From assembly GCA_025935615.1 (NCBI GenBank), contig JAICUY010000011.1:1-35604 (forward strand): DNA of 35,604 nucleotides, given 5' to 3'. How positions within the stretch are numbered: the first letter of the stretch is position 1; each line of letters opens with the position of its first letter. Position numbers and translations under genes: made by a program. Of the stretch, positions 3,893 to 23,531 are shown in pieces. Under the pieces are notes generated by a model that searched no databases, was not told the DNA's origin, and saw only the letters and a list, made by a program, of their open reading frames with translations. Source of the DNA: Steroidobacteraceae bacterium. GTDB lineage: Bacteria; Chloroflexota; Limnocylindria; QHBO01.

Positions 3893-4693
3893 CTATGGCT
3901 GGCAGCGCGGGCACCAGTACGTCATTCGCGCGCCGTCCCCCTGCCGCCGCCCCAGGATCAACGTCCCGCACCGACGGCACGGCCGGCCGCCGCGACCGTA
4001 GACCCACAGCTGCTGGCCGGGTCGGCCTCGCCCGGTGGTCACCCGCGCCCCGCCGCCCACGTTCGCTCCCAACAACCGATGCGCCGTGGCCACCACTCCC
4101 CGAACGACCTCCTCCTCCAGCTCCCCGACAGGTCGCCACGGGCTGACGCCCTCGAGGAAACAGATCTCGCTCTTGTAGACGTTGCCCACGCCCGCCATCA
4201 GCCGCTGGTCGAGCAGCGCCTCGCCGATCTCGCGTCGGCCGTCGGACCGCAGTCGCCGCACGGCTTCATCGGCATCGAACGACCGCGACAGCAGGTCCGG
4301 CCCGAGCGCGGTCAGCTGCGGGTGGCGTGCGAGGCCCGCATCGGTCATGAGCTCGACTTCCGGCACGTCGAAGGCGACGGCAACAGTGGTCGCCGTCTCG
4401 AGCACCGCGCTGGCCTGGCTGGCTGGCCGGCGCCAGCTGTCACCCACGCGGTACCGATGCCACGCGCCCCGCATCCGCAGGTGCGTTCGCAGCGTGAGCC
4501 CGTTGTCGAAACCGATCAGCAGGTGCTTCCCGCGCGCCTCGACGCTGCTGACCAGGCTCCCGACCAGCGGCGCCAGGTCCGGCACGCGCCGCAATCCCGG
4601 CCGGGGCTGAGCGTAGGCGCGCGTGATCTGGGCGCCGAGCAGCGCCTGCCGCAGCACCTCGGCGATGCGGAAGATCGTGTCCCCCTCTGGCAT
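3893..4693 (-). CDS. Fpg/Nei-family DNA glycosylase (endonuclease VIII-like)
   Basis: MPEGDTIFRIAEVLRQALLG... (MPEGDTI N-terminus) and C-terminal zinc finger CRRCGTLILGRRQGDGARMTYWCPRCQ. Confidence 0.92.
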   Translation of the reverse strand: MPEGDTIFRIAEVLRQALLGAQITRAYAQPRPGLRRVPDLAPLVGSLVSSVEARGKHLLIGFDNGLTLRTHLRMRGAWHRYRVGDSWRRPASQASAVLETATTVAVAFDVPEVELMTDAGLARHPQLTALGPDLLSRSFDADEAVRRLRSDGRREIGEALLDQRLMAGVGNVYKSEICFLEGVSPWRPVGELEEEVVRGVVATAHRLLGANVGGGARVTTGRGRPGQQLWVYGRGGRPCRRCGTLILGRRQGDGARMTYWCPRCQP

Positions 4694-4725: not shown

Positions 4726-4769
4726 GGTAAGCCGGTGGTAAGTGGACGGTAAGCGGCTGGTAATGGCCG
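4726..4769. promoter_or_regulatory. Four 11-bp-phased direct repeats GGTAAGCCGGT-GGTAAGTGGAC-GGTAAGCGGCT-GGTAATGGCCG
   Basis: GGTAA(G/T) at 4726, 4737, 4748, 4759, exactly 11-bp spacing, inside the divergent nei/HTH-nuclease intergenic region. Confidence 0.75.
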
Positions 4770-4787
4770 CCGCGGCATCATTGCCCG

Positions 4788-5531
4788 ATGCTGAACGCTG
4801 AACTCGGCAGGATCGCCCGGTCGATCCGACATCGGCTGCGCTTGCGACAGGAGGATGTGGCAGCGAGGGCGCGGGTGCATCGGTCAGCGGTGAGCCGTCT
4901 CGAGCACGGGATGATTGGGACGATCGATGTCGACGTGGTCCGCGCCATCTTCGACGCCCTGGGGGCCAAGCTGGAGCTTCGCGTCCTGTGGCATGGGCCG
5001 GAACTGGCGCGGATGATGGACGAGGCGCATGCGGTTCTGGCGGCCGCATGGAAGGCGCGGCTCGAGCGATGGGGCTGGCTCGTCCGGGTCGAGGTGAGCT
5101 ACAGCCGCTACGGCGAGCGCGGCCGAATCGACCTCCTCGCGTTTCATCCGGCGTTGCGGATCGTGCTGGTTATCGAAGTCAAGACGGACATGGTCGACGC
5201 GCAGGGCCTGCTCGGCCCTTTGGACGTGAAGCTTCGACTGGCCCGCGCAATTGCCGCCGATCTGGGGTGGGCGGCGCCGGCTCTCGTTGTGCCTGTTGTC
5301 CTGTTCCGCGACGACACCACCATCCGCCGCCGGGTCGCCCGCTTGGCGCCGCTCTTCGCAGACCTCGACCTCGTCGGCCGCGGCGCTACGGCATGGCTCC
5401 GCTCACCGTCCCTCGAGCGCGGTCCTCGAGGCCTCCTGCTCTTCTCGGCCCTGGTCCATGGCGACGGACGTCCGCCGTCGGTCGCACGGGAACGGATTCG
5501 GGTCCGGCAAGCGCCGGAGCGAGCGGGCTGA
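4788..5531 (+). CDS. XRE-type HTH fused to a PD-(D/E)XK nuclease-like domain
   Basis: HTH: RSIRHRLRLRQEDVAARARVHRSAVSRLEHG; nuclease-like core: RIDLLAFHPALRIVLVIEVKTDMVDAQGLLGPLDVKLRLA (D...EVK). Confidence 0.7.
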   Translation: MLNAELGRIARSIRHRLRLRQEDVAARARVHRSAVSRLEHGMIGTIDVDVVRAIFDALGAKLELRVLWHGPELARMMDEAHAVLAAAWKARLERWGWLVRVEVSYSRYGERGRIDLLAFHPALRIVLVIEVKTDMVDAQGLLGPLDVKLRLARAIAADLGWAAPALVVPVVLFRDDTTIRRRVARLAPLFADLDLVGRGATAWLRSPSLERGPRGLLLFSALVHGDGRPPSVARERIRVRQAPERAG

Positions 5532-10644: not shown

Positions 10645-11235
10645 TCAGCGCCCGCGCCGCCGGTCGTCGAGGACCGGCTCGATCAGCCCATAGCTCCCGT
10701 CGTTGCGCCGATACAGGACGTTGATCGTCTCGCTGTCGGCGTTGAGGAAGACGAAGAACGCGTGGCCCAGCTCCTCCATGCGGTCGATGGCGTCCTCCTC
10801 GAACATCGGCACCATGTCGAAGCGCTTGAGCTTCACGATCTCGGGACGCGTCTCCTCCTGCTCGTCGGGCCCAGCCACGCTGCCCAGCGCCTCGCGCGCG
10901 GTGATGGCCTGGGTCGCCTCGGCGGTGCGACCGCGACCGCTGCGCGGTCGCTCCTTGCTGCGCACCACCTGGCGCTCCAGCTTGTCGAGCAGCGCGTCGA
11001 GGGCGGCGATCGGGTTGGAGCCGGCCGATTGTGAGCGCACCACCTCGCCGTCGTTGCGCAGCGTCACCTCGGCGACGTGAGACTGGTCGTTGGCCCGCGA
11101 GGCGTTGGCGATCAGCTCGACCGTCGCCTCGGCGTCCGGATGCGAGATCCGGTCGAGCCGGCGCAGCTTCTTCTCGATGTCCGCTCGCAGGCGATCGCTG
11201 AGCTCGAGGTTCCGGGCCTTGACGTTGGTCTTCAC
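10645..11235 (-). CDS. hpf: Ribosome hibernation promoting factor / sigma-54 modulation protein (long form)
   Basis: VKTNVKARNLELSDRLRADIEKKLRRLDRISHPDAEATVEL..., C-terminal VKLKRFDMVPMFEEDAIDRMEELGHAFFVFLNADSETINVLYRRNDGSYGLIEP; AGGA before GTG at 11235. Confidence 0.93.
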   Translation of the reverse strand: MKTNVKARNLELSDRLRADIEKKLRRLDRISHPDAEATVELIANASRANDQSHVAEVTLRNDGEVVRSQSAGSNPIAALDALLDKLERQVVRSKERPRSGRGRTAEATQAITAREALGSVAGPDEQEETRPEIVKLKRFDMVPMFEEDAIDRMEELGHAFFVFLNADSETINVLYRRNDGSYGLIEPVLDDRRRGR

Positions 11236-11294
11236 GTCCGATCCTCCGCTGCGGCTGGTCTCCATACCGTAGCACCGGCCGTGAACAGGGTCAC

Positions 11295-11945
11295 TCACAC
11301 CTCTCGGCCGATGGCAAAGCCGTACACATGCATCACGCCTGCCTCGCGCAGGACCGATGCGCACGTCTCCAGCGTCGCGGACGTCGTCAGGATGTCGTCG
11401 ACCACGATGACCGTCGGAGGCGGACGTGCGGCGGCGTTGACCGCGAAGGCGCCGCGCAGGTTCCGCAGCCGCCCTGCCCGGTCGAGCCGATGCTGCTTGG
11501 TGGTCGCCACCTGCCGCACCAGCAGCGTTCCGGCGCGGGTCGAGGTGCAGCGCGCCAGCTCTCGGGCCAGCAGCTCCGCCTGGTTGTAGCCGCGCTCTCG
11601 CTGCCGTTCCACGTGCACCGGCACGGGGATCAGGAGGGCCGGCCCGCTGAGGCGCAGCAGGGTGCGCAGTGCAGGCGCGGCCGCATCGGCCAGTGGTCGG
11701 GCCAGGCGCGAGGCGCCCATGTACTTCAGGCGCTGCAGGATTCGGCGCAGCGTGGGCTCGTAGGCGAAGGCAGCCAGCGCGAGCGCGAGCGCGTCGCCGA
11801 TCAGCGTTCCAGCATCGGCAGCGTAGAAGCGGTCGACGGGATCGGCCGGCGGGCGCAGTCGTCGCAGGCAGCGTGCACAGACGAGGTCGCCGGACCGGCC
11901 ACAGCCGGCGCACGCGGGTGGCAGCAGCAGATCGAGCAGGGCCAT
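11295..11945 (-). CDS. comF: ComF-family phosphoribosyltransferase-like protein
   Basis: CAGCGRSGDLVCARCLRRLRPP; LLIPVPVHVERQRERGYNQAELLARELAR; TVIVVDDILTTSATLETCASVLREAG. Confidence 0.9.
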   Translation of the reverse strand: MALLDLLLPPACAGCGRSGDLVCARCLRRLRPPADPVDRFYAADAGTLIGDALALALAAFAYEPTLRRILQRLKYMGASRLARPLADAAAPALRTLLRLSGPALLIPVPVHVERQRERGYNQAELLARELARCTSTRAGTLLVRQVATTKQHRLDRAGRLRNLRGAFAVNAAARPPPTVIVVDDILTTSATLETCASVLREAGVMHVYGFAIGREV

Positions 11946-11969
11946 GCCGTAAAGGCTGCCAGAGCACCC

Positions 11970-12002
11970 CTTACCGGCCGCTTACCGCTGGCTTATCGGC
12001 TT
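11970..12002. promoter_or_regulatory. Three 11-bp-phased repeats CTTACCGGCCG-CTTACCGCTGG-CTTATCGGCTT (reverse complement of the GGTAAG-N5 array)
   Basis: CTTA(C/T)C at 11970, 11981, 11992, immediately upstream of comF; a fourth TAAG occurs 8 bp beyond. Confidence 0.7.
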
Positions 12003-12379: not shown

Positions 12380-14206
12380 CTACGAGCACGACCCTGCTGT
12401 CAGGACACACGGCTCGATCAGATACGGGAACCCGTCCCCCGGACCGTCGAACGTCTGCGTCACATTCGTACCGCCGTTGAACGTGAACGTCCACGCGATG
12501 AGTTGGCCAACGCCCGCATGATTTGGCTGACCGGCGATGGAGACGTTGTCATGAGGCGCATACGTGACGCCCTGCCATGACAAGCCGGCGCCGGAATTGA
12601 CCTGGATGACGGTGGTGTCGATTTGGGCGTAGCCGACCTGATCAGGCTTCAGCACGTACAGCGCGATGCCGACGCCGTACAGCGTGGGGTTCGATTCCTG
12701 CCCAGCCTGGTACACCCACTTCGACCCGTTGAACGCGTAAGGGCGGGTGCCCTTGGTCGTCCAACCGCCGAGCTTGAGGTCGTCTCCGGCGGTGTCGATG
12801 TTACCCAGACCGCGGTTCAGGTCCATGACGCCGCCGCTGCCGGGCGAGAACTGGGCGCCACCACCGCCCGACTTTGGCCGGATCACGACGGTCACGCCGT
12901 CGCCGACAATCAGCGCACTGTTGCGGACATCAACCGTATCGGTCACGTAGAACACACCGGGCTGCTGGTTCGATCCGATGAACGTTGCGGTTCCACCGCC
13001 CGGGCTGTTCGGGTTGGAGTGCGAGCGGATGGGATCGAGTACGACACAGGAGCCGTTCTGGACTGTGATGTTGCGGTAGGTCCCCGGCCCGAGCATTGGC
13101 GCTGTGGCGATGGTTCCATCGGATCCGACGCACTTGCCCGAGCTGTTCACCGTTCCGGTGTTGATGTTGATGTCAGGCGGCGACCCACTGAAGGGCGCAC
13201 CTGCCGTATCACCATTCGGCACGTCGGGGAAGGCCGAGTTGTTGATGAACGAGGTCGGCCATGCTCCTGTGTCATTGGGAATCGGCGCGTAGTTCGGGTC
13301 ATTGACGAACGAGGGCAGCTTCTTCGCGCTGATCGGGTTGTTGCTGCCGTCGACGATCTGTCCCGGTGACCAGCAGGAGCTGCCGCACGAGACATAGTCG
13401 ATCAGGTAGACGTTTGCTTCGTCGGCTGCGCTGGAGCTCATGACCTTCAGCCGTGAGCCCGAGCCGGGCATGGTCATGCCGTAGTTGCCGCCCACGTCGC
13501 CGTCGATCACCGTGAGGGTCGACCCTGAACCGGCGATCTTGATGTCCTTCGTGTTTGACGGACCCGAATCGATGTCGGACCCGCCCTGGCCACGGCGCAG
13601 GGTAATCACCGCGAAGCGGTTGGGGAAGATTCCAGCCGTCGACCATGCGGACACCGTGAAGCCGTTGGGGACGAAGATCTTGCCGAAGAAGGTGTCGCGG
13701 CGCTTGTCGACGCGCACGAACAGGACGCTGTTGGACGTGCCGACCGTGCTCATCGAGGATGCCGAGCCGGCACCATTGGGCGGGGTCGAGACCCAGACGG
13801 TGTATGGATCCGTACTGGTCGCTGGCGCGGCCTGCCCTGCGGCTCCGGTATTGCTCGCCGCATAGCCGCTGATGTCCGCGGCGGTCAGCCCCAGATTGAG
13901 GTGATCGTTCAGGTAGTTCCAGGCAGCGGTGCGGGCGCAGGTCCACTTGTCGGTGGACCCGCCGCCGTCTGCGCACGGATCCCCGAGCGGACGTGTCAGG
14001 TAGTTGGCGCCAGCCAGGGCGGCCGCATCGGTCGCGTTCTGGTAGTCGCGGCGCGCGACGTAGAGCGCGCCGACATCGACGGTGAGCGCTGCAAAGCCGA
14101 GGAAGGCGATCAGGCCGAATGCGAAGATGACCAGGATCTGCCCGCGTCCGTCACGGGCATGGCGGCTCGGCGCAGAGCCGAACCGTCGGCGAAGGCGGCC
14201 GAACAT
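12380..14206 (-). CDS. TadG-like Flp-pilus-associated protein with large extracellular C-terminal region
   Basis: MFGRLRRRFGSAPSRHARDGRGQILVIFAFGLIAFLGFAALTVDVGALYVARRDYQNATDAAALAGA; start overlaps tadE stop (TGATG). Confidence 0.85.
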   Translation of the reverse strand: MFGRLRRRFGSAPSRHARDGRGQILVIFAFGLIAFLGFAALTVDVGALYVARRDYQNATDAAALAGANYLTRPLGDPCADGGGSTDKWTCARTAAWNYLNDHLNLGLTAADISGYAASNTGAAGQAAPATSTDPYTVWVSTPPNGAGSASSMSTVGTSNSVLFVRVDKRRDTFFGKIFVPNGFTVSAWSTAGIFPNRFAVITLRRGQGGSDIDSGPSNTKDIKIAGSGSTLTVIDGDVGGNYGMTMPGSGSRLKVMSSSAADEANVYLIDYVSCGSSCWSPGQIVDGSNNPISAKKLPSFVNDPNYAPIPNDTGAWPTSFINNSAFPDVPNGDTAGAPFSGSPPDININTGTVNSSGKCVGSDGTIATAPMLGPGTYRNITVQNGSCVVLDPIRSHSNPNSPGGGTATFIGSNQQPGVFYVTDTVDVRNSALIVGDGVTVVIRPKSGGGGAQFSPGSGGVMDLNRGLGNIDTAGDDLKLGGWTTKGTRPYAFNGSKWVYQAGQESNPTLYGVGIALYVLKPDQVGYAQIDTTVIQVNSGAGLSWQGVTYAPHDNVSIAGQPNHAGVGQLIAWTFTFNGGTNVTQTFDGPGDGFPYLIEPCVLTAGSCS

Positions 14207-14760
14207 CAGCAGTTCACCGTCTGGCTGAGCGACGGGTTCGTCGTCAGCAGCGGGTTCTCTACGCGCATCGCTTCGGTTGCGCCGAGCTGGAACTTGCTGT
14301 CGCTGGCCCCGTCGAGCCCATCGATGATGTTGCTGACGATGGGAATGAGGAGCGGGTGCTGATACTCGATGTGGACCGTCATGCGGACCGAGTAGGTCGG
14401 GGTTGAGTCGTGCGGATCCGAATATGACTCGTAGGTCACGTATGTCGCCCCCGACTGCTTGACGTTGGAGAGCGAGTAGCCCGGAACGCGGCTCATGGCA
14501 TTCGGAGTGGTCGATGCCGTGCCGAGCAGGTAGTTGCATACCTTGGCGCCGGCGCCGGACGCGCCAGACGCGTCACTGACGGGCGATGTGGAGCCATACC
14601 GGGTCGCTTCCCGGACGGCATTGATCACGCCGATCTGGCCCGAGAAGAGCAGGCCGAACTGGATGATGCCCATGAGAATGAGCAGGGCGATGGGAAGGAT
14701 GAGTGCGAACTCGACGAGCGCTTGTCCGCGCTCATCTCGGCTCAGGATTCGCTTGTTCAT
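14206..14760 (-). CDS. tadE: TadE-like pseudopilin
   Basis: MNKRILSRDERGQALVEFALILPIALLILMGIIQFGLLFSGQIGVINAVREATRYG. Confidence 0.9.
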   Translation of the reverse strand: MNKRILSRDERGQALVEFALILPIALLILMGIIQFGLLFSGQIGVINAVREATRYGSTSPVSDASGASGAGAKVCNYLLGTASTTPNAMSRVPGYSLSNVKQSGATYVTYESYSDPHDSTPTYSVRMTVHIEYQHPLLIPIVSNIIDGLDGASDSKFQLGATEAMRVENPLLTTNPSLSQTVNC

Positions 14761-14869
14761 GGATGGCAGCTACCTGCTACGAAGGCCTGCATGCTAGGAA
14801 AGGCACCTTACGCGTCGCCTTGCAGGCTAAGTGAACGAGCGTGGGCGGTCGGTAGTACCTTCGTTCGCC

Positions 14870-16429
14870 TCACTCGATCGCCGCCGCCGATTCGTTGATC
14901 AATTCGCCCTCTGCCTCGCGCGGCTCCGCAGGCAGGAAGACGCGGAACGTGGTTCCGACGCCCTGCTTGCTCTCGACCGCCATCGAGCCGCCCATGATCC
15001 TGGCCAATCCTCGGGCAGCATACAGACCGATGCCGCTTCCATCCGGTGCCGCATCGCGCGCCGCGGCCGAGCGGTAGAACTGCTCGAACGCGTGTGACAG
15101 CGCCTCGGCGTCCATGCCGAACCCCTCGTCGCTGACCCACAGCTCGGCGACCAGATCGCTCGGGACGGCATCCGCCCGCAGGCGCCGATCTTCGGCGTCT
15201 CGCCGATGGCTCTCGATCCCGACTCGGATCTCACTGCCTTGGCCGTACTTCAGTGCGTTGTCGAGCAGCGCCCACACGATCTGCTCCACGCGGTCCGGAT
15301 CGGCGACGATCAACGGCTCATCCGACTCGAGCTTCAGCTCTCGCGTGTCCGACACGAGAGCCCGCCATGTCCGCCGAACGATCGGCTCGGCTCGGAAGAC
15401 GTCCTGGCGGGCGACGAGAGCGCCGGCATCCAGCCGGGTGACCGCCAGCAGCTGTCCAACCATGCGACGCAAGCGATCGGCCTGGTGCTGGATGACCTCG
15501 AGATCGGCGCGGCCGGCAGCATCCAGGTCCGCCCGCGCGCTGAACTCACCGGCGATGGCGCCGATGCTGGTAAGGGGCGTCTGCAGGTCATGCGTCACCC
15601 CGCGCAGGAAGTCGCGCTGGACCTCCGCCAGGCGATGCAGCTCATCGGCCTGCGAACGAACGCGTGCGTAGAGCAGCGCGTGCTCGAGCGCATTGCCGAC
15701 GTGCTGGCCGAGCAGGCTGTAGACGTTGCGATCTGCGGTCGACGGCTCAGCGCGGCCCTCCCATGGCGCGAGCAGCATCGCAGTCACGTCCTCACCCCCC
15801 GCGAGATCGATTACCAGGAAACCGCCCCACGGGCCCTCGATCTGACGCACGTCACTCGTCGTCTTGTCGCCCGCCGACGCGACGGATGCCCAGCGATGCA
15901 CCTCCTCGAGGGGCGCGGGTTCGTCGCGTTCGGGTACGTAGACGCCGGGGACCAGGGCCACACTTTCGGCGACGTGAAGGACGGCCAGGCTCCAGGTCGC
16001 GTCGCCGGTTGCCGCGCGAGCGGCGGCAACGATCGAGCGGGCGACCATGCCCGCATCGGCTCCAATCGCGACCTGCCGTACTTCGGATGCCAGTGAGGCG
16101 ATCTGCCGGTTGCGTTCGTCGAGCGCTGCCGCCATCCGGCGCTGGGCTTCACCGCCGCCACCGGAATCTGCCTCCCGAGTGCGCCGGCCGCGCTCCGCGA
16201 GCCGAACCATGGTGCGCAGGTCATCGCCCAGCCGGCGCGAACCGGCCACCGTCAGGATTCCGATCCAGATCAACGCGGCAAGTGTGACCAACAGGAGGGC
16301 TGACCCCACGCCCGCCTGGGCCACCCAGTCGCCGGCGACGAACATGACGACGGCGAATACGACGAGGACCGGGACGACGGCGACCAGCAACAGCGCCAGC
16401 AGGCGCAGCGCCAGGCGACCGCCGTCCAT
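14870..16429 (-). CDS. Membrane sensor histidine kinase (two N-terminal TM segments, GAF-like region, HisKA/HATPase)
   Basis: FLRGVTHDLQTPLTSIGAIAGEFSA; WALLDNALKYGQGSEIRVGIE; SGIGLYAARGLARIMGGSMAVESKQGVGTTFRVFLP. Confidence 0.92.
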   Translation of the reverse strand: MDGGRLALRLLALLLVAVVPVLVVFAVVMFVAGDWVAQAGVGSALLLVTLAALIWIGILTVAGSRRLGDDLRTMVRLAERGRRTREADSGGGGEAQRRMAAALDERNRQIASLASEVRQVAIGADAGMVARSIVAAARAATGDATWSLAVLHVAESVALVPGVYVPERDEPAPLEEVHRWASVASAGDKTTSDVRQIEGPWGGFLVIDLAGGEDVTAMLLAPWEGRAEPSTADRNVYSLLGQHVGNALEHALLYARVRSQADELHRLAEVQRDFLRGVTHDLQTPLTSIGAIAGEFSARADLDAAGRADLEVIQHQADRLRRMVGQLLAVTRLDAGALVARQDVFRAEPIVRRTWRALVSDTRELKLESDEPLIVADPDRVEQIVWALLDNALKYGQGSEIRVGIESHRRDAEDRRLRADAVPSDLVAELWVSDEGFGMDAEALSHAFEQFYRSAAARDAAPDGSGIGLYAARGLARIMGGSMAVESKQGVGTTFRVFLPAEPREAEGELINESAAAIE

Positions 16430-16431
16430 TG

Positions 16432-17142
16432 TCAGGCCGGCTGCGCGGTCGTCGCGGCCGAGACGAGGCGGTAGCCGATCCCCCGCTCAGTCAACAGGTA
16501 GCGTGGATGATCGGGGTCGAGCTCGACCTTGCGGCGAAGGCGCCGGATGCTGACCCACACGTACGACGGGTCAGCACCGTCTGCGTCCGACCAGACGCGG
16601 TCGAGCAGCGTCTCGGTCGGGACGACGTGGTCGATGGACCCGATCAGAACCTGGAGCAGCCGAATCTCGGTAGGGGTCAACGGCGACGAGCCGGCCGGTG
16701 TCACGACGCGTTTCGCGGCCAGGTCGATCTCCAGCTCGCCGTCGTCGAGGTTGATCTGCGGCCGTCCGACACGCACCCGGCGCATGACGCGCTGCACGCG
16801 GGCGACGAGCTCGTCCGGGTTGAACGGCTTGGTGATGTAGTCCTCGGCATAGTCCTCGAGGGCGCGGACCTTGGAGGTGTCCTCGGAGACCGCCGACAGC
16901 ACGATGATCGGCAGGTCGGCGATGCGCTTCACCCGCCGGCACAGTTCCCAGCCGTCCATGCCCGGCATCATGAGGTCGACGACCAGCAGGCTGGGCCAGC
17001 TGCGTTCGAGCGCGGTGAGGGCACTCGCTCCTGAAGGAGCGGTCCGAACCTCGTACCCCTCCCGCGTCAGCCGGCGCGCAAGGACCGATAGAAGTGTCGC
17101 GTCATCATCGACCAGCAGGATCCCCGGTCGAAGATGGGGCAT
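16432..17142 (-). CDS. OmpR/PhoB-family response regulator
   Basis: GILLVDDDATLLSVLARRLTREGYEVRTAPSG...VDLMMPGMDGWELCRR...KPFNPDELVARV + winged-helix LTPTEIRLLQVLI...YVWVSIRRLRRKVELDPDHPRYLLTERGIGYRL. Confidence 0.95.
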   Translation of the reverse strand: MPHLRPGILLVDDDATLLSVLARRLTREGYEVRTAPSGASALTALERSWPSLLVVDLMMPGMDGWELCRRVKRIADLPIIVLSAVSEDTSKVRALEDYAEDYITKPFNPDELVARVQRVMRRVRVGRPQINLDDGELEIDLAAKRVVTPAGSSPLTPTEIRLLQVLIGSIDHVVPTETLLDRVWSDADGADPSYVWVSIRRLRRKVELDPDHPRYLLTERGIGYRLVSAATTAQPA

Positions 17143-17146
17143 CACC

Positions 17147-18070
17147 TCAAATGCCGCCCCCGACGCCGCCACCCATGACGGTCACCACGGCCGGACCGAG
17201 AATCACGATGAAGATCGTCGGGAAGATGCAGCCTACCATCGGGAACAGCATCTTGACGGGTGCCTTCGCTGCGGCCTCCTCAGCCCGCTGGCGGCGCTCG
17301 ATACGCAGCTGCTGCGACTGGATCTGGAGCACCTTGGCGATAGGAACGCCGAGCTGCTCAGCCTGGACGATGGCGCCGATGAAGTTCGAGATCGGCTGGG
17401 CATCCGAGCGCGTGGCGACGTCGCGCAGTGCGTCGCGCCGGGTGCGTCCCATCCGGACCTCGGCCAGTGCCTGGCGGAACTCCTCGACGAGCGGCCCTTC
17501 CATCTTTTCGACCACCTTTGCGAGCGCCGCGTCGAAGCCGAGGCCGGCTTCGACCGAGATCGTCAGCAGGTCGAGTGCGTCGGGCAGCTGCAGGACCATC
17601 TCGAAGGCCCGTCCGCGGATCTTGCGGCCGAGCCAGAACTCGGGCGCCATGAATCCGATCGGCAGCCCGATCAGGCCAAAGAAGAGACCGCCCTGCACTC
17701 CGGCGATGAGCGACAGCAGCAGGAAGAAGAGCACGCCGAAGACGATTGCCGAGAGGATCTTGACGCCCATCCAGTCGGCGCCTCGCAGGCCGCCCGGGTA
17801 GCCAGCCTTTTCGAGCTTGGCATCCGTCCGCGCGATGATCCCACCCTGGTCGCCGCGACGGCCGACCTTGGAGAGTCGCTTGATGACGGGACGAAGCGTG
17901 CGCTCGAAGAACGGCTGGCCGAGCTCGTACTCCTCGAGCGTCTTGGGCTGGACGACGAGCTGTTCGAGCCGAGCCTGCACCGCGTCCTTGCCTGGACGCG
18001 CGGCGATGCCGAATGTGATGAGCAGGACCGCAAGCGAGGCGAGAACGGCGATCAGGATCTGTGGAGGCAT
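17147..18070 (-). CDS. tadC: TadC-like type II/Flp secretion inner-membrane protein
   Basis: LPDALDLLTISVEAGLGFDAALAKVVEKMEGPLVEEFRQALAEVRMGRTRRDALRDVATRSD...QSQQLRIERRQRAEEAAAKAPVKMLFPMVGCIFPTIFIVILGPA. Confidence 0.92.
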   Translation of the reverse strand: MPPQILIAVLASLAVLLITFGIAARPGKDAVQARLEQLVVQPKTLEEYELGQPFFERTLRPVIKRLSKVGRRGDQGGIIARTDAKLEKAGYPGGLRGADWMGVKILSAIVFGVLFFLLLSLIAGVQGGLFFGLIGLPIGFMAPEFWLGRKIRGRAFEMVLQLPDALDLLTISVEAGLGFDAALAKVVEKMEGPLVEEFRQALAEVRMGRTRRDALRDVATRSDAQPISNFIGAIVQAEQLGVPIAKVLQIQSQQLRIERRQRAEEAAAKAPVKMLFPMVGCIFPTIFIVILGPAVVTVMGGGVGGGI

Positions 18071-18077
18071 GACTGGC

Positions 18078-19070
18078 TTACACCTTGATGTCGACGATGC
18101 GGCGGATGAGCAGGTACCCGATGCCCATGCTGATCAAGCCGACAATGAAGAAGACGATACCCATCGGAAGCCCGAACATCTCGGGTGGCTTGTTGATCAT
18201 TGCCCCGATGTACGACGGGCTGATGAGGAACAGGATCCCTGCGAGGCCCACCGGCAGCAGCGTGATGACGTAGCCGCTGTAGCGCTGCATGGCGGTCAGT
18301 GTCTGGATCTCCCCCTGGATCCGGATCCGCTCGCGAATCGTGAACGCGATCGAGTCGAGCACGGTGGCGAGATTGCCGCCGACCTGGCTCTGGATATTGA
18401 TCGCGGTGACCATCAGCTCGAGATCTTCGGACTTCACCCGACGAGACATGTTGTTGAGGGCAGGCTGGAGTGCGACGCCCAGACTCATCTCGCGCACCAC
18501 GCGTTCGAACTCGGTGCTGATCGGGGGCCGAGCTTCGCGGGTCACCAGCTCGACGCCCTGAAGGAACGAAGATCCCGCGCGCAGCGAGTTGGCGAGCAGG
18601 GTGATGGTGTCGGGCAGCTGTGTACCGAACTCCTTGACCCGCTTGTTCTGGCGATATCGCAGGTAGAAGCGGGGGAAGTAGGCACCGATCAGGAACGCGA
18701 GAGCAAGGGCGATCGGATTACGGAGGCCAGCGAACACGAAGCTCAGCACGAACGCACCGGCCGCGAACGCGAATGGCGACGCGATCCACATCAGGATGAA
18801 TTCCGCCGGCTTCAGCTTCATGTCCGCGCGGGCCAGTTCGGTGCTGAGCCGAGCCGACATGTCCTGCCGCTCGATGACGCGACTCAGGCCGGCAACGACC
18901 GCAGACTCGCGGTCCTCGTCACCCCCGCTGGAGGGCTCCCCGGCGTTCGCCGACGCGTACCGCTCGAGGCGTGACGACACGGCGCCGCCACCGCCACCGC
19001 TCATGGCGATGCCGATCGCGATCAGCAGGACCGCGCCTGCGGAAAGGCCGGCGATGACGATTGGCAGCAT
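18078..19070 (-). CDS. tadB: TadB-like type II/Flp secretion inner-membrane protein
   Basis: LPDTITLLANSLRAGSSFLQGVELVTREARPPISTEFERVVREMSLGVALQPALNNMSRRV. Confidence 0.92.
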   Translation of the reverse strand: MLPIVIAGLSAGAVLLIAIGIAMSGGGGGAVSSRLERYASANAGEPSSGGDEDRESAVVAGLSRVIERQDMSARLSTELARADMKLKPAEFILMWIASPFAFAAGAFVLSFVFAGLRNPIALALAFLIGAYFPRFYLRYRQNKRVKEFGTQLPDTITLLANSLRAGSSFLQGVELVTREARPPISTEFERVVREMSLGVALQPALNNMSRRVKSEDLELMVTAINIQSQVGGNLATVLDSIAFTIRERIRIQGEIQTLTAMQRYSGYVITLLPVGLAGILFLISPSYIGAMINKPPEMFGLPMGIVFFIVGLISMGIGYLLIRRIVDIKV

Positions 19071-19092
19071 CTGGGATTTGGCTCCTCGGTGA

Positions 19093-20571
<1,479 letters not shown>

Positions 20572-20587
20572 GGTGAGTTCCTTCCCC

Positions 20588-21808
20588 TTAGCGGCGTGCG
20601 AAGAGTCCGCGCTTGGCTGACTTCTCTGTGGACTTGTTGGCGGCGGGCTCTCCCGCGAGCGTACGAGCGAGCTTGGCGATATCGCGCGACAGCGCGCTAT
20701 CCGGGTGGGATACGACGAACGGAACGCCGCGATTCACCGCGAGCACGGCAAGGCGGCCATCGGAAACGATGGTGCCGTCGATCGAGCGGCGGATGGAAGC
20801 CTCCACGTCGCCGATCCGGATCCCCTGGGCAGTGTCGGAGCGGTTGATCACGAGACGAATCTTCGACCGATCGTACTCGAGTTGGTCGGCAACCTCCAGG
20901 AACAGGCGGACGTTCTTGATGGTGGTGATCTCGAGAGCGGAGAGCACTACGATCTGATCGGCCGCGTCCATGACCCCCAGGCTGTGGTCGGTCAGCGCCG
21001 CAGGCAGGTCGACGATGACGTAGTCGTGGTTGACTCGGAGCTGATCGACCATCTTCCGCAGGTAGGCGGGAGTCACGAGGTCCGCTCCCTCAGGCGCCGG
21101 AGGCGCGAGCAGCACCCGGATTCCCGTGGAATGGTCGATCACCACCGAATTGATGATGTCCGCATCCGGCTCGCCACCTTCGACCGCGTCGAGCATCGAG
21201 CGGTTCTTGGGGTTGAGGTTGAGCAATACACCGATGTCGCCGAACTGCAGGTTCGCGTCGATCAGGCACACCCGGCTCTTCGTCTCGCGCTGAATGGCCA
21301 GCGCCAGGTTGGTGGCGATCGTCGTTCGGCCGGCGCCGCCCTTCGGCGAGAACATGGCGATGACCTGATGGTCCTCGATGTTCTCGGACTGGCCGCCCGG
21401 GGTGGGCGGAATGACGACCTGCAGCTGCTCGCGGCGCGCCAGCTCCTTGCCGAAGACGCTGTGGATGGTGGTGCTGAACTCATCGGCCGAGAACGGCTTG
21501 ACGAGGAACTCGCGAGCCCCGGCCGCAATGGCGCGACGGAGCTGCTCGGCCTCGCCGTGGACGCTCATCATGATGATCGGCGAGGTGGGCAGCCGCTGCG
21601 AGATGAACTCGGCGGCGGCCACCCCATCCATGCCCGGCATGTTGATGTCCATGACGATGACGTCGGGGCGCACCTCCATGGCGAGCCTGATCGCCTCCTC
21701 CCCGGAGCCGGCGGTGGCCACCACGTCGATCTCCTGCTCGGTGGCGAGGAGCTTGGTCAAGTGGTCACGCGTCTCGGGGATGTCGTCGACGATCAGGACC
21801 TTGATCAC
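20588..21808 (-). CDS. cpaE: CpaE-like protein: intact receiver domain + MinD/ParA-type ATPase
   Basis: MIKVLIVDDIPETRDHLTKLL...VMDINMPGMDG...KPFSADEF + MFSPKGGAGRTTIATNLALAIQRETKSRVCLIDANLQFGDIGVLLNL. Confidence 0.93.
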   Translation of the reverse strand: MIKVLIVDDIPETRDHLTKLLATEQEIDVVATAGSGEEAIRLAMEVRPDVIVMDINMPGMDGVAAAEFISQRLPTSPIIMMSVHGEAEQLRRAIAAGAREFLVKPFSADEFSTTIHSVFGKELARREQLQVVIPPTPGGQSENIEDHQVIAMFSPKGGAGRTTIATNLALAIQRETKSRVCLIDANLQFGDIGVLLNLNPKNRSMLDAVEGGEPDADIINSVVIDHSTGIRVLLAPPAPEGADLVTPAYLRKMVDQLRVNHDYVIVDLPAALTDHSLGVMDAADQIVVLSALEITTIKNVRLFLEVADQLEYDRSKIRLVINRSDTAQGIRIGDVEASIRRSIDGTIVSDGRLAVLAVNRGVPFVVSHPDSALSRDIAKLARTLAGEPAANKSTEKSAKRGLFARR

Positions 21809-21834
21809 GGTCAGGACTCCAGCGTCAGGGGTGC

Positions 21835-22725
21835 TCAGCGACCGGGCTTGGTCTTACCGCCGCCGACCTGCTCCACGATGCCCGGCACCGGGAGGCCATA
21901 GTCGTCGACCAGGCGGTCGATGGTGATACCGGTCGTGCGCTCGTTATCCGTGTCCTGGGTCGCGCGGATCGTGACCGAGAACAGGCGAGCCCCGGATGCC
22001 TCGACCGCATCGCGCTGAGCGAACTTGATCAGCTCGGCGTCCTGGTCGGTGCCGGCGAAGACGATCAGCACGGTATCGGTCAACTGCGGCTGAGCGGCAG
22101 CGGGCTGCTCTGCTCCCGGACTTGGCGTTGCCGCGGTCTGGGTAGCCCGCGACTGGCTCACGTACAGCACGCGCTTGTTCTGGAGCACCGTCTTCACGGT
22201 GCGCGCGGCCGACAGCCCGGTGACCGGCTCGAAACGCGGATTCTGAGCGGTTGAGTCGGACGACGGCTGCAGGACTTGCACGTCCTGAGCGATGACAACG
22301 TCGATCACGTCCCCTGGCTTCACCAGGAAGTCGGCGCCGGTCGTGCGGTCGAGCTGCAGCGTCACGGCCTTCTCGCCGGGCTTCAGCTGCCCGGGGATAT
22401 TCACGACGAGCAGTCCTTCGCCGAACGTTTCCTTGCTCACCTGGGCCCCAGCCGGAACGGCCACAACGGCGGGACGGCCGCCGACCTGCGAGGGATCGGT
22501 GAGGGCGGTACCCGAGACGCCGGTCGGCGGGACGAGCTTCGTCTGCACCATGTCAGGCGTGACCGGCTGCCCGATCGCGATGTCTTCCTTGGCGACCAGG
22601 ACGGTGGCCTGCACTTCCTGCTGCGGAGCGCCCGGCCCCTGGTTCAAGAAGACAACAATCGCGATGAACGCGAGGACGGCGAGCAGCACACCAACCAGGA
22701 TCACCAGGCGATTAGACCGCTTCAC
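21835..22725 (-). CDS. cpaB: CpaB/RcpC-like Flp pilus assembly protein (SAF domain)
   Basis: VKRSNRLVILVGVLLAVLAFIAIVVFLNQGPGAPQQEVQATVLVAKEDIAIGQPVTPDMVQTKLVPP; GTG start with AAGGGG upstream. Confidence 0.88.
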   Translation of the reverse strand: MKRSNRLVILVGVLLAVLAFIAIVVFLNQGPGAPQQEVQATVLVAKEDIAIGQPVTPDMVQTKLVPPTGVSGTALTDPSQVGGRPAVVAVPAGAQVSKETFGEGLLVVNIPGQLKPGEKAVTLQLDRTTGADFLVKPGDVIDVVIAQDVQVLQPSSDSTAQNPRFEPVTGLSAARTVKTVLQNKRVLYVSQSRATQTAATPSPGAEQPAAAQPQLTDTVLIVFAGTDQDAELIKFAQRDAVEASGARLFSVTIRATQDTDNERTTGITIDRLVDDYGLPVPGIVEQVGGGKTKPGR

Positions 22726-22794
22726 AGATGTACCCCTTAGAGCTCGGAATGGGTGGTCGATAAGGCCAGGGAATGATGCAGCCGTTGTGACTGC

Positions 22795-22804
22795 GGTCAA
22801 CAGT
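22795..22804 (-). promoter_or_regulatory. Candidate promoter -35 region (minus strand ACTGTTGACC) upstream of cpaB
   Basis: TTGACC, ~16 nt spacer, CATCAT; 10-mer shared with 25398 and 34295. Confidence 0.45.
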
Positions 22805-22874
22805 CTAGGTGCAGTGTCCAGCAGCGTTCGAGCGGACTTGTGGGCTATGCCGAAGTACTACCCGGCGCCCAGAA

Positions 22875-22932
22875 ATGCCCGACACGACCCGGGCATGACA
22901 GAGCCCCGCGCCGAGTTGACGCGGGGCTCTGT
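22875..22932. terminator. Two tandem hairpins downstream of flp (ATGCCC/GGGCAT; ACAGAGCCCCGCG-9nt-CGCGGGGCTCTGT)
   Basis: 13-bp perfect stem 22898-22910/22920-22932 plus a shorter stem; no strong U-tract, so could be a processing/stability element. Confidence 0.65.
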
Positions 22933-22952
22933 GGTGTCGAAACGACCTGAGG

Positions 22953-23147
22953 TTAGACCTGCAGGCTGGTGCCGACGTTCTGGAAGATCCGGCTCACGAT
23001 CGGGCCAAGGAAGATCAGGGCCACGATCACGATGATCGCGATGAGGGCGAGCAGAAGCCCGTACTCAACCAGGGTCTGGCCTTCCTCGTCGTCGTTACGG
23101 AACTTTGAGAGAAGAGTGCTGATGTAAGAACCGACGAACTGAAGCAT
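22953..23147 (-). CDS. flp: Flp-type (class III) prepilin
   Basis: MLQFVGSYISTLLSKFRNDDEEGQTLVEYGLLLALIAIIVIVALIFLGPIVSRIFQNVGTSLQV; G^QTLVEY processing motif; AAAGGAGG upstream. Confidence 0.95.
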   Translation of the reverse strand: MLQFVGSYISTLLSKFRNDDEEGQTLVEYGLLLALIAIIVIVALIFLGPIVSRIFQNVGTSLQV

Positions 23148-23272
23148 ATTGGCAAAACCTCCTTTCCTCGAAGATTTGCGGGCAGCGTACGGAACGCTGC
23201 AGAGGTCGTGTATGGCCTCATGGTCCTATCCGACACTTGCCGGGAGCGTACTGTGGTTCGGACCGCCCCGTT

Positions 23273-23278
23273 TGTCAA
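23273..23278 (-). promoter_or_regulatory. Candidate -35 TTGACA for flp
   Basis: Perfect TTGACA on the minus strand ~125 bp upstream of flp ATG; -10 (CACAGT at 17 nt) is weak. Confidence 0.35.
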
Positions 23279-23342
23279 GGTTCCCAACCACTCTGTCCCT
23301 CTCAAGATCCTGTCGCATCGGTCGCCTGTGACGGGAGAGGAA

Positions 23343-23372
23343 GGGAGCCGTGTCTGCTGCGACACGGCTCCC
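23343..23372. terminator. Strong hairpin GGGAGCCGTGTC-tgctgc-GACACGGCTCCC between the NarL-type regulator and flp
   Basis: 12-bp perfect stem, 6-nt loop, followed on the minus strand by TTCCTCTCCC. Confidence 0.6.
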
Positions 23373-23531
23373 GCACCGGAGGAGGAGACCCGAGGGTCAG
23401 GCTTGGAGGCCCTTCCCTCGTTGGGATGACGCCGCCCGCGGATACCCTTGGACGACTTGCCTGCAGGCTACGGAGCCCTGCGATCTCTCACCATGGCACT
23501 CCAGTACTCATCCTTGCGGGACTTGCGGCGG

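Follow-up and report, generated by a model that had tools for sequence, protein, structure and literature searches.

Tandem 11-bp repeat arrays precede competence and recombination genes in an uncultured Chloroflexota lineage and may form the operator of a peptide-gated regulator

Background

The PHO box consists of two 11-nt direct repeats, to which a response regulator binds head to tail (PMC4415409). Operators of this kind, including those of PhoB, PhoP and PmrA type, are built of tandem 11-bp repeats, in each of which a stretch of six or seven bases is conserved and the spacer is loose; they vary in copy number and are found at the place of the -35 element. The arrays described in this work are alike in all these respects, but they carry the sequence GGTAAG and precede a putative regulon for DNA uptake and recombination.

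The core SigX competence regulon of streptococci lists radA, comFC, yfiA, comEA, comEC, radC, ssbB and recA (PMC5069739). In the ComR-ComS (XIP)/SigX system the peptide precursor gene lies beside that of a regulator with XRE-HTH and TPR-type domains, and the peptide is autoinduced. Both traits have predicted counterparts here, and the gene lists overlap (comEA, comEC, comFC, yfiA, radA, radC, ssb, recA, topA). Unlike that system, the present one is found in Chloroflexota, has two co-varying peptide genes with classical signal-peptide leaders, and shows a direct-repeat operator on the com genes rather than a sigma-X box, with no alternative sigma factor seen. The ComK regulon of Bacillus is similar in that one activator serves uptake and recombination genes, but ComK boxes are AT-boxes. 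PafBC of mycobacteria acts at RecA-NDp, a non-palindromic activator motif near a TANNNT -10, on recA and other DNA repair genes; it differs from the system reported here in having a single motif in place of tandem 11-bp repeats, a WYL regulator and no com core. RRNPP peptide signalling has been treated as a Firmicutes matter (PMC9765709, PMC10075063). In the literature searched, no paper was found that connects competence and RRNPP-type signalling with Chloroflexi, and two RRNPP surveys make no mention of Chloroflexi.

The window analyzed here is a stretch of 35,604 nucleotides from a 1.88-Mb draft genome that is 68% complete; all genomes compared are draft MAGs. Judging from the two contrasting families that PMC13212565 describes for Limnocylindria, this is probably the class concerned. 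The family of the window is designated f1, and f2 to f5 are the other families compared.

Results and discussion

Repeat arrays in the window

Array 1 (4726-4769, plus strand) has four 11-bp direct repeats GGTAAG-N5, which start at 4726 (GGTAAGCCGGT), 4737 (GGTAAGTGGAC), 4748 (GGTAAGCGGCT) and 4759 (GGTAATGGCCG). It sits between two divergent gene starts, that of a Nei/Fpg-family DNA glycosylase at 4693 (3893-4693, minus strand; Pfam and NCBIfam) and that of a 247-aa protein with an XRE-type HTH (Pfam HTH_31/HTH_3) and a PD-(D/E)XK-like nuclease part at 4788 (4788-5531, plus strand), called here the HTH-nuclease, towards which the array reads. The repeats and their place between the two genes had been pointed out in a preliminary description of this DNA, and the repeat positions given there proved to be exact. 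The 11-bp period is clean: TRF reports period 11 with 3.5 copies, and the array matches itself at 20 of 27 positions with period 11 and at 12 of 27 or fewer with the other periods from 8 to 15. Chance is a remote explanation, as the pattern (GGTAA-N6)x3 with up to three mismatches occurs four times in the window against 0.02 expected from dinucleotide shuffling, two of the four matches being exact in-register copies of array 1.

In a position weight matrix (PWM) scan, just two places stood out clearly from 200 shuffled windows, whose best score was 12.1: array 1 (37.4) and a second array (38.2) that is absent from the preliminary description. Since the matrix was partly trained on these two arrays themselves, the independent evidence is a search of the whole genome with the bare pattern (GGTAA-N6)x3, at most two mismatches, which gave 24 matches against one in the reversed control. 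Array 2 (GATAAGCCAGC GGTAAGCGGCC GGTAA; 11971-11997, minus strand; PWM match 11969-11997) lies 25 nt before the start of comFC (11295-11945, minus strand), which encodes a ComF-family phosphoribosyltransferase with a DZR_2 zinc ribbon (NCBIfam TIGR00201, 7.6e-28, below the curated cut-off). Directly after comFC there is a reading frame named from its sequence as a ribosome hibernation factor, hpf/yfiA-like (10645-11265, minus strand); yfiA is on the streptococcal list as well.

The idea of a local operator shared by the glycosylase and HTH-nuclease genes did not hold. In locus L116 (public contig JAPSGM010000076.1) an array stands 24 nt before the HTH-nuclease gene while nei lies upstream in the same direction; in L136 nei is divergent, as in the window. 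The array thus travels with the HTH-nuclease gene and belongs to it rather than to nei, whose orientation is not conserved and which is probably not a target of array 1; moreover, the same array occurs before competence genes genome-wide.

Genes preceded by arrays

Random occurrence in coding sequence, which the preliminary description named as a refutation, was not what the genome-wide search showed: its matches are found at gene starts. About 20 are near-identical arrays, and a sequence model built from 45 sites additionally finds those of comEA and topA. In this genome arrays lead six HTH-nuclease genes, comFC, comEA-comEC, comM, radC, recJ, recA (behind a small basic ORF), two PcrA/UvrD-like helicase genes, topA, the gene for an exported LTD-domain protein, a GntR gene and a few unnamed genes. 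In relatives they lead radA, ssb, comEA, comFC, recJ, recA, comM, yraN and more HTH-nuclease genes. Profiles confirmed recJ, comM, radC, comEA, comEC (243 bits, cut-off 190), topA, recA, radA, UPF0102/YraN and the PcrA/UvrD-like helicases, and ssb was named by sequence and orthology. All of comEA/comEC, comF, ssb, recA, radA and radC, a competence set, are array-led in this genome or in relatives. Judged from gene content, the array-led set is a competence and recombination regulon.

A few matches, L011, L013 and L019, are located inside genes or ahead of genes of unrelated function; two of them, L011, inside a dnaE-like frame, and L019, were judged to be due to chance and rejected as true sites.

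The presence of recA, radA, recJ, ssb and uvrD/pcrA-like genes, all repair genes, and the position of nei next to array 1 would also fit the operator of a LexA-independent DNA-damage activator resembling PafBC, with the com genes as passengers of a repair regulon; PafBC likewise activates through a non-palindromic promoter motif (PMC6789036). However, the array-led genes comEA-comEC, comFC, comM and radC play no part in the damage response of known systems, and no uvrA, uvrB, ruv, recN, dinB or lexA was recognized among the array genes of this genome, which is 68% complete. There is a large overlap between the gene list and the core SigX regulon of streptococci (PMC5069739), and the peptide-receptor pair described below fits signalling, not damage. 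We consider a damage regulon unlikely, and prefer to read the set as a competence regulon, although no array was seen on dprA, coiA or pilus genes.

The small ORF before recA is very basic (MAKGRDRPRKEPKRKAKEKAPK...) and lies directly behind the array in L022, L030, L031, L044 and L048, which belong to several genera. In genome G018 (L045, L062, L063, L064, L067 and L069) a perfect palindrome, AGTGTTCAAGA[G/C]TCTTGAACACT, is present about 20 bp downstream of the arrays, often before genes unrelated to competence; it may represent a family of repeats or serve as a second operator. The arrays of L023, L028, L051 and L110 read into a short conserved stretch, GYGTGCCCTGC. In L028 and L051 the arrays are directed away from a gene for a 5'-3' exonuclease. 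Past the conserved stretch, the sequence of L023, L028 and L051 runs antisense to the last part of a methylmalonyl-CoA-mutase-like gene. These four arrays could serve a small RNA or a divergent promoter.

Promoter geometry and the array format

An alignment of 51 sites, pooled from the window's genome and its relatives, shows that TAA is invariant in repeats 1 and 2 and nearly so in repeat 3, and that the arrays are oriented towards the genes they precede. A conserved GG-A---T element follows the last GGTAA by about 12 bp, the -10-like hexamer beginning 12-13 bp after it, and in these pooled sites the last repeat lies about 17 bp before the TANNNT-like -10. An ATG or GTG is found 23-25 nt after the last repeat in 25 of the 51 sites; offsets of 6, 8, 15 and 16 also stand out, and most others hold 0-3 sites. 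This spacing suggests that the last repeat replaces the -35 element and places the start codon near the point where transcription is expected to begin. In the window, the predicted -10 of the HTH-nuclease gene is CATCAT (4776-4781, plus strand), 12 bp after the last GGTAA; the start codon follows 6 bp on, and a leaderless mRNA is therefore predicted. The predicted -10 of comFC, CAGCCT (11953-11958, minus strand), is at the corresponding position of the alignment.

Direct repeats of 11 bp with 6-7 conserved bp and a variable spacer, overlapping the -35 position at a fixed distance from the -10, are features of OmpR/PhoB-type operators that the aligned sites share, and the array resembles the site of a class II activator in the style of PhoB, placed at leaderless promoters. 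The proposal of an OmpR/PhoB-style site in the preliminary description is thus upheld for the regulatory 11-bp direct-repeat array of hexamer-N5 format, to which the class II activator position is now added; of the two proteins that it offered for binding assays, the XRE protein and the OmpR-type regulator, neither was singled out by the present comparisons. The format of the array (hexamer-N5, 11 bp, variable number, replacing the -35), which is that of the PHO box (PMC4415409), favours an OmpR-family regulator as the binder; the peptide described below might then act through the kinase of that regulator or at an earlier step. Such regulators are present in all genomes, seven of them in that of the window, and the OmpR-type regulator at 16432-17172 is a possible candidate. 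However, no candidate was singled out, the gene at 16432-17172 has no array upstream, and OmpR-type regulators are also numerous in f2 and f4, where arrays are not seen. This assignment is kept as a tentative one, somewhat less likely than not. SARP/BTAD activators also bind 11-bp direct repeats, but were rejected as binders, PF03704 being absent from this genome and sporadic in relatives.

The OmpR-type regulator gene and a histidine kinase gene (14870-17172) are part of a pilus cluster, tad-type as judged by eye, that occupies 12380-23500 of the window. Tad pili are able to serve DNA uptake in other bacteria. No array was found on this cluster.

The HTH-nuclease family

All six members of the HTH-nuclease family in the window's genome are array-led. 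Alignment A2 of the family has the motif E102, D115 and E130-x-K132; the lysine of ExK is lost in one subgroup (rows L001, L003 and L010), which may be catalytically dead. The predicted model of the protein encoded at 4788 has an alpha-beta-beta-beta-alpha-beta core after the HTH (pLDDT 74.5). A Foldseek search with this model matched only the HTH with confidence, so that the PD-(D/E)XK assignment rests on the motif and on the strand order. Apart from one weak match, relatives of the protein were found only in Chloroflexi MAGs.

Since the protein has an HTH domain and all six members stand behind arrays, it could itself be the array-binding regulator, controlling its own synthesis. This would require six divergent paralogs with different recognition helices to share one site; furthermore, the f1 genome G021 (59% complete) has arrays without the family, which is also missing from the f5 genomes. 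Such autoregulation appears very improbable. The HTH-nuclease proteins look like members of the regulon, and we infer that they may handle incoming DNA.

Conservation across families

The preliminary description had proposed that a real operator should be kept upstream of orthologs, and footprinting of the HTH-nuclease, ssb and comFC genes bears this out. In nearly every f1 genome, few or none of 200 shuffles reach the tandem score found upstream of ssb and comFC, and the repeats stand at the same distance from the start codon; the comFC array is kept in 11 of the 12 f1 genomes with usable upstream sequence. The HTH-nuclease genes of f1 genomes that have no strict arrays are preceded by degenerate ones at about -50. 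Many f3 genomes have degenerate GATRAG repeats upstream of ssb and comFC, and the f3 HTH-nuclease genes have two-repeat versions. No repeats were detected by footprinting upstream of the ssb and comFC orthologs of f2 and f4. In f5, GRTACG-N5 repeats lie upstream of ssb and comFC, but the signal is weak (7/200, 8/200 and 14/200 shuffles); they are possible variant arrays, in a family whose genomes G029 and G037 lack both the receptor described below and the HTH-nucleases.

Across the phylum the three-repeat model matched only 6 of 400 genomes, which had suggested a restriction to one family; this was discarded, as footprinting found the two-repeat versions of f3, invisible to that model. As far as these upstream regions indicate, the regulon is kept in f1, degenerate in f3 and not seen in f2 and f4.

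Peptide genes and the XRE-TPR receptor

In at least seven array loci a small ORF of 38-48 residues, peptide A, lies about 76-90 nt after the array. It is signal-peptide-like, with a basic start, a hydrophobic stretch and a short tail, such as ATGGGDFPRLL or ACSNGNGFPS. A profile search recovered the type A ORFs and a second set of paralogs without arrays, type B. In the nine genomes having both, the eight-residue cores of A and B are identical at 68 of 72 positions (G001, whose two cores differ at two positions, is counted among the nine), and only 4 of 362,880 re-pairings reach this value. The leaders of the same pairs are identical at 43 of 180 positions (mean 38.6, not significant). Common descent by itself would be expected to leave its mark on leader and core equally, and we therefore read the co-variation of the cores as selection for one signal and one receptor.

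Peptide B is an ORF of 37-41 aa, signal-peptide-like as judged by eye, that is divergent from the gene for a 432-aa protein with an XRE HTH and TPRs (HTH_3/HTH_31 and TPR_12), the putative receptor, in ten f1 genomes; the scan did not find a peptide ORF beside the receptor in G002, G003, G005, G007, G011 and G014. In several f3 genomes, too, the receptor has a signal-peptide-like ORF next to it, the last three residues being an aromatic or hydrophobic one, a proline, and a basic residue or Gln. Examples are ALA-GSTGGPWPK, VFA-GGGGTIFPR and ALA-GGGGGPWPQ, where the hyphen marks the predicted cleavage point as read by us. Among PDB sequences the best receptor-family match is the HTH of PlcR (1e-5), and the TPR part matches kinesin light chain. 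An N-terminal HTH with a TPR receptor domain and an adjoining small propeptide ORF of secreted type are features of RRNPP(A) systems, in the layout of the ComR-ComS and Rgg-SHP pairs. We propose by analogy that the pair would work like RRNPP(A) quorum sensing, and claim no membership by descent. A second, more distant copy of the receptor (about 1e-125) is present in G001, G005, G007, G011, G013, G018 and G019.

Homologs of the receptor were found in 19 of 22 f1 genomes and in 57 f3 genomes, the greater part of that family, but in none of f2, f4 and f5 at E<=1e-60; more distant XRE-TPR proteins occur in f2 and f4 (best 3e-42). This is broadly the range of the arrays, and with peptide B next to the receptor gene and peptide A under an array, the peptide-loaded receptor might itself bind the arrays, as ComR binds its box after XIP. 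However, XRE dimers usually bind inverted repeats, and the region between the receptor and peptide B genes has no GGTAAG array. Moreover, none of the five genomes of genus g11 in f3 has the receptor, nor do G039 and G049, and (variant) repeats nonetheless persist in G039 and in the g11 genomes examined. The receptor is therefore probably not the sole array binder, and direct binding seems to us rather doubtful.

A proposed competence circuit

We consider it likely that the array is the operator of a positive competence regulator in this Chloroflexota lineage, and that this regulator is probably peptide-gated. Direct binding by the receptor and binding by an OmpR-family regulator are both sub-cases of this explanation, and the confidence given to each is not exclusive of the other. 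The activator would occupy the 11-bp direct repeats in head-to-tail order along a single face of the double helix and, from the last repeat in the -35 place, recruit sigma-70 RNA polymerase to a TANNNT-like -10 at mostly leaderless promoters. It would switch on comEA-comEC, comFC-hpf, comM, radC, recA, ssb, radA, recJ, topA and the helicase genes, together with the HTH-nuclease family, including the gene at 4788. A secreted peptide probably gates the programme: peptide B, without an array, would be made beside the XRE-TPR receptor, and peptide A, under an array, would provide positive feedback. What can be read from sequence is the array-led gene set with its conservation, the promoter geometry, both peptide genes, the gene of the receptor and the co-variation of the cores; activation rather than repression, peptide export and sensing, competence itself and the array binder are put forward on that basis.

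Several observations weigh against this explanation. The repeats of g11 and G039 persist without the receptor, arrays were not seen on dprA, coiA or pilus genes, the tad cluster of the window included, and the repair genes recA, radA, recJ and those of uvrD type would suit a damage regulon as well. All comparisons are based on draft MAGs, the window's genome being 68% complete, and a few array matches lie in coding sequence or before unrelated genes.

Conclusions

On balance, we lean towards the view that a peptide pheromone controls natural transformation in this uncultured Chloroflexota class, with constitutive and array-inducible precursors, a species-specific core (TGGGDFPR, SNGNGFP), an XRE-TPR receptor and an 11-bp operator reached directly or via an activator. 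It would be a ComRS-like system outside Firmicutes, with its own operator and pheromone family. The control site is shared within a group of soil and freshwater bacteria that have not been cultured. If the proposal is true, the operator would provide a ready list of competence genes for the whole uncultured class, the HTH-nuclease family would be a candidate new component of transformation, and the short peptides would be synthesizable chemicals, testable as a competence switch in enrichments.
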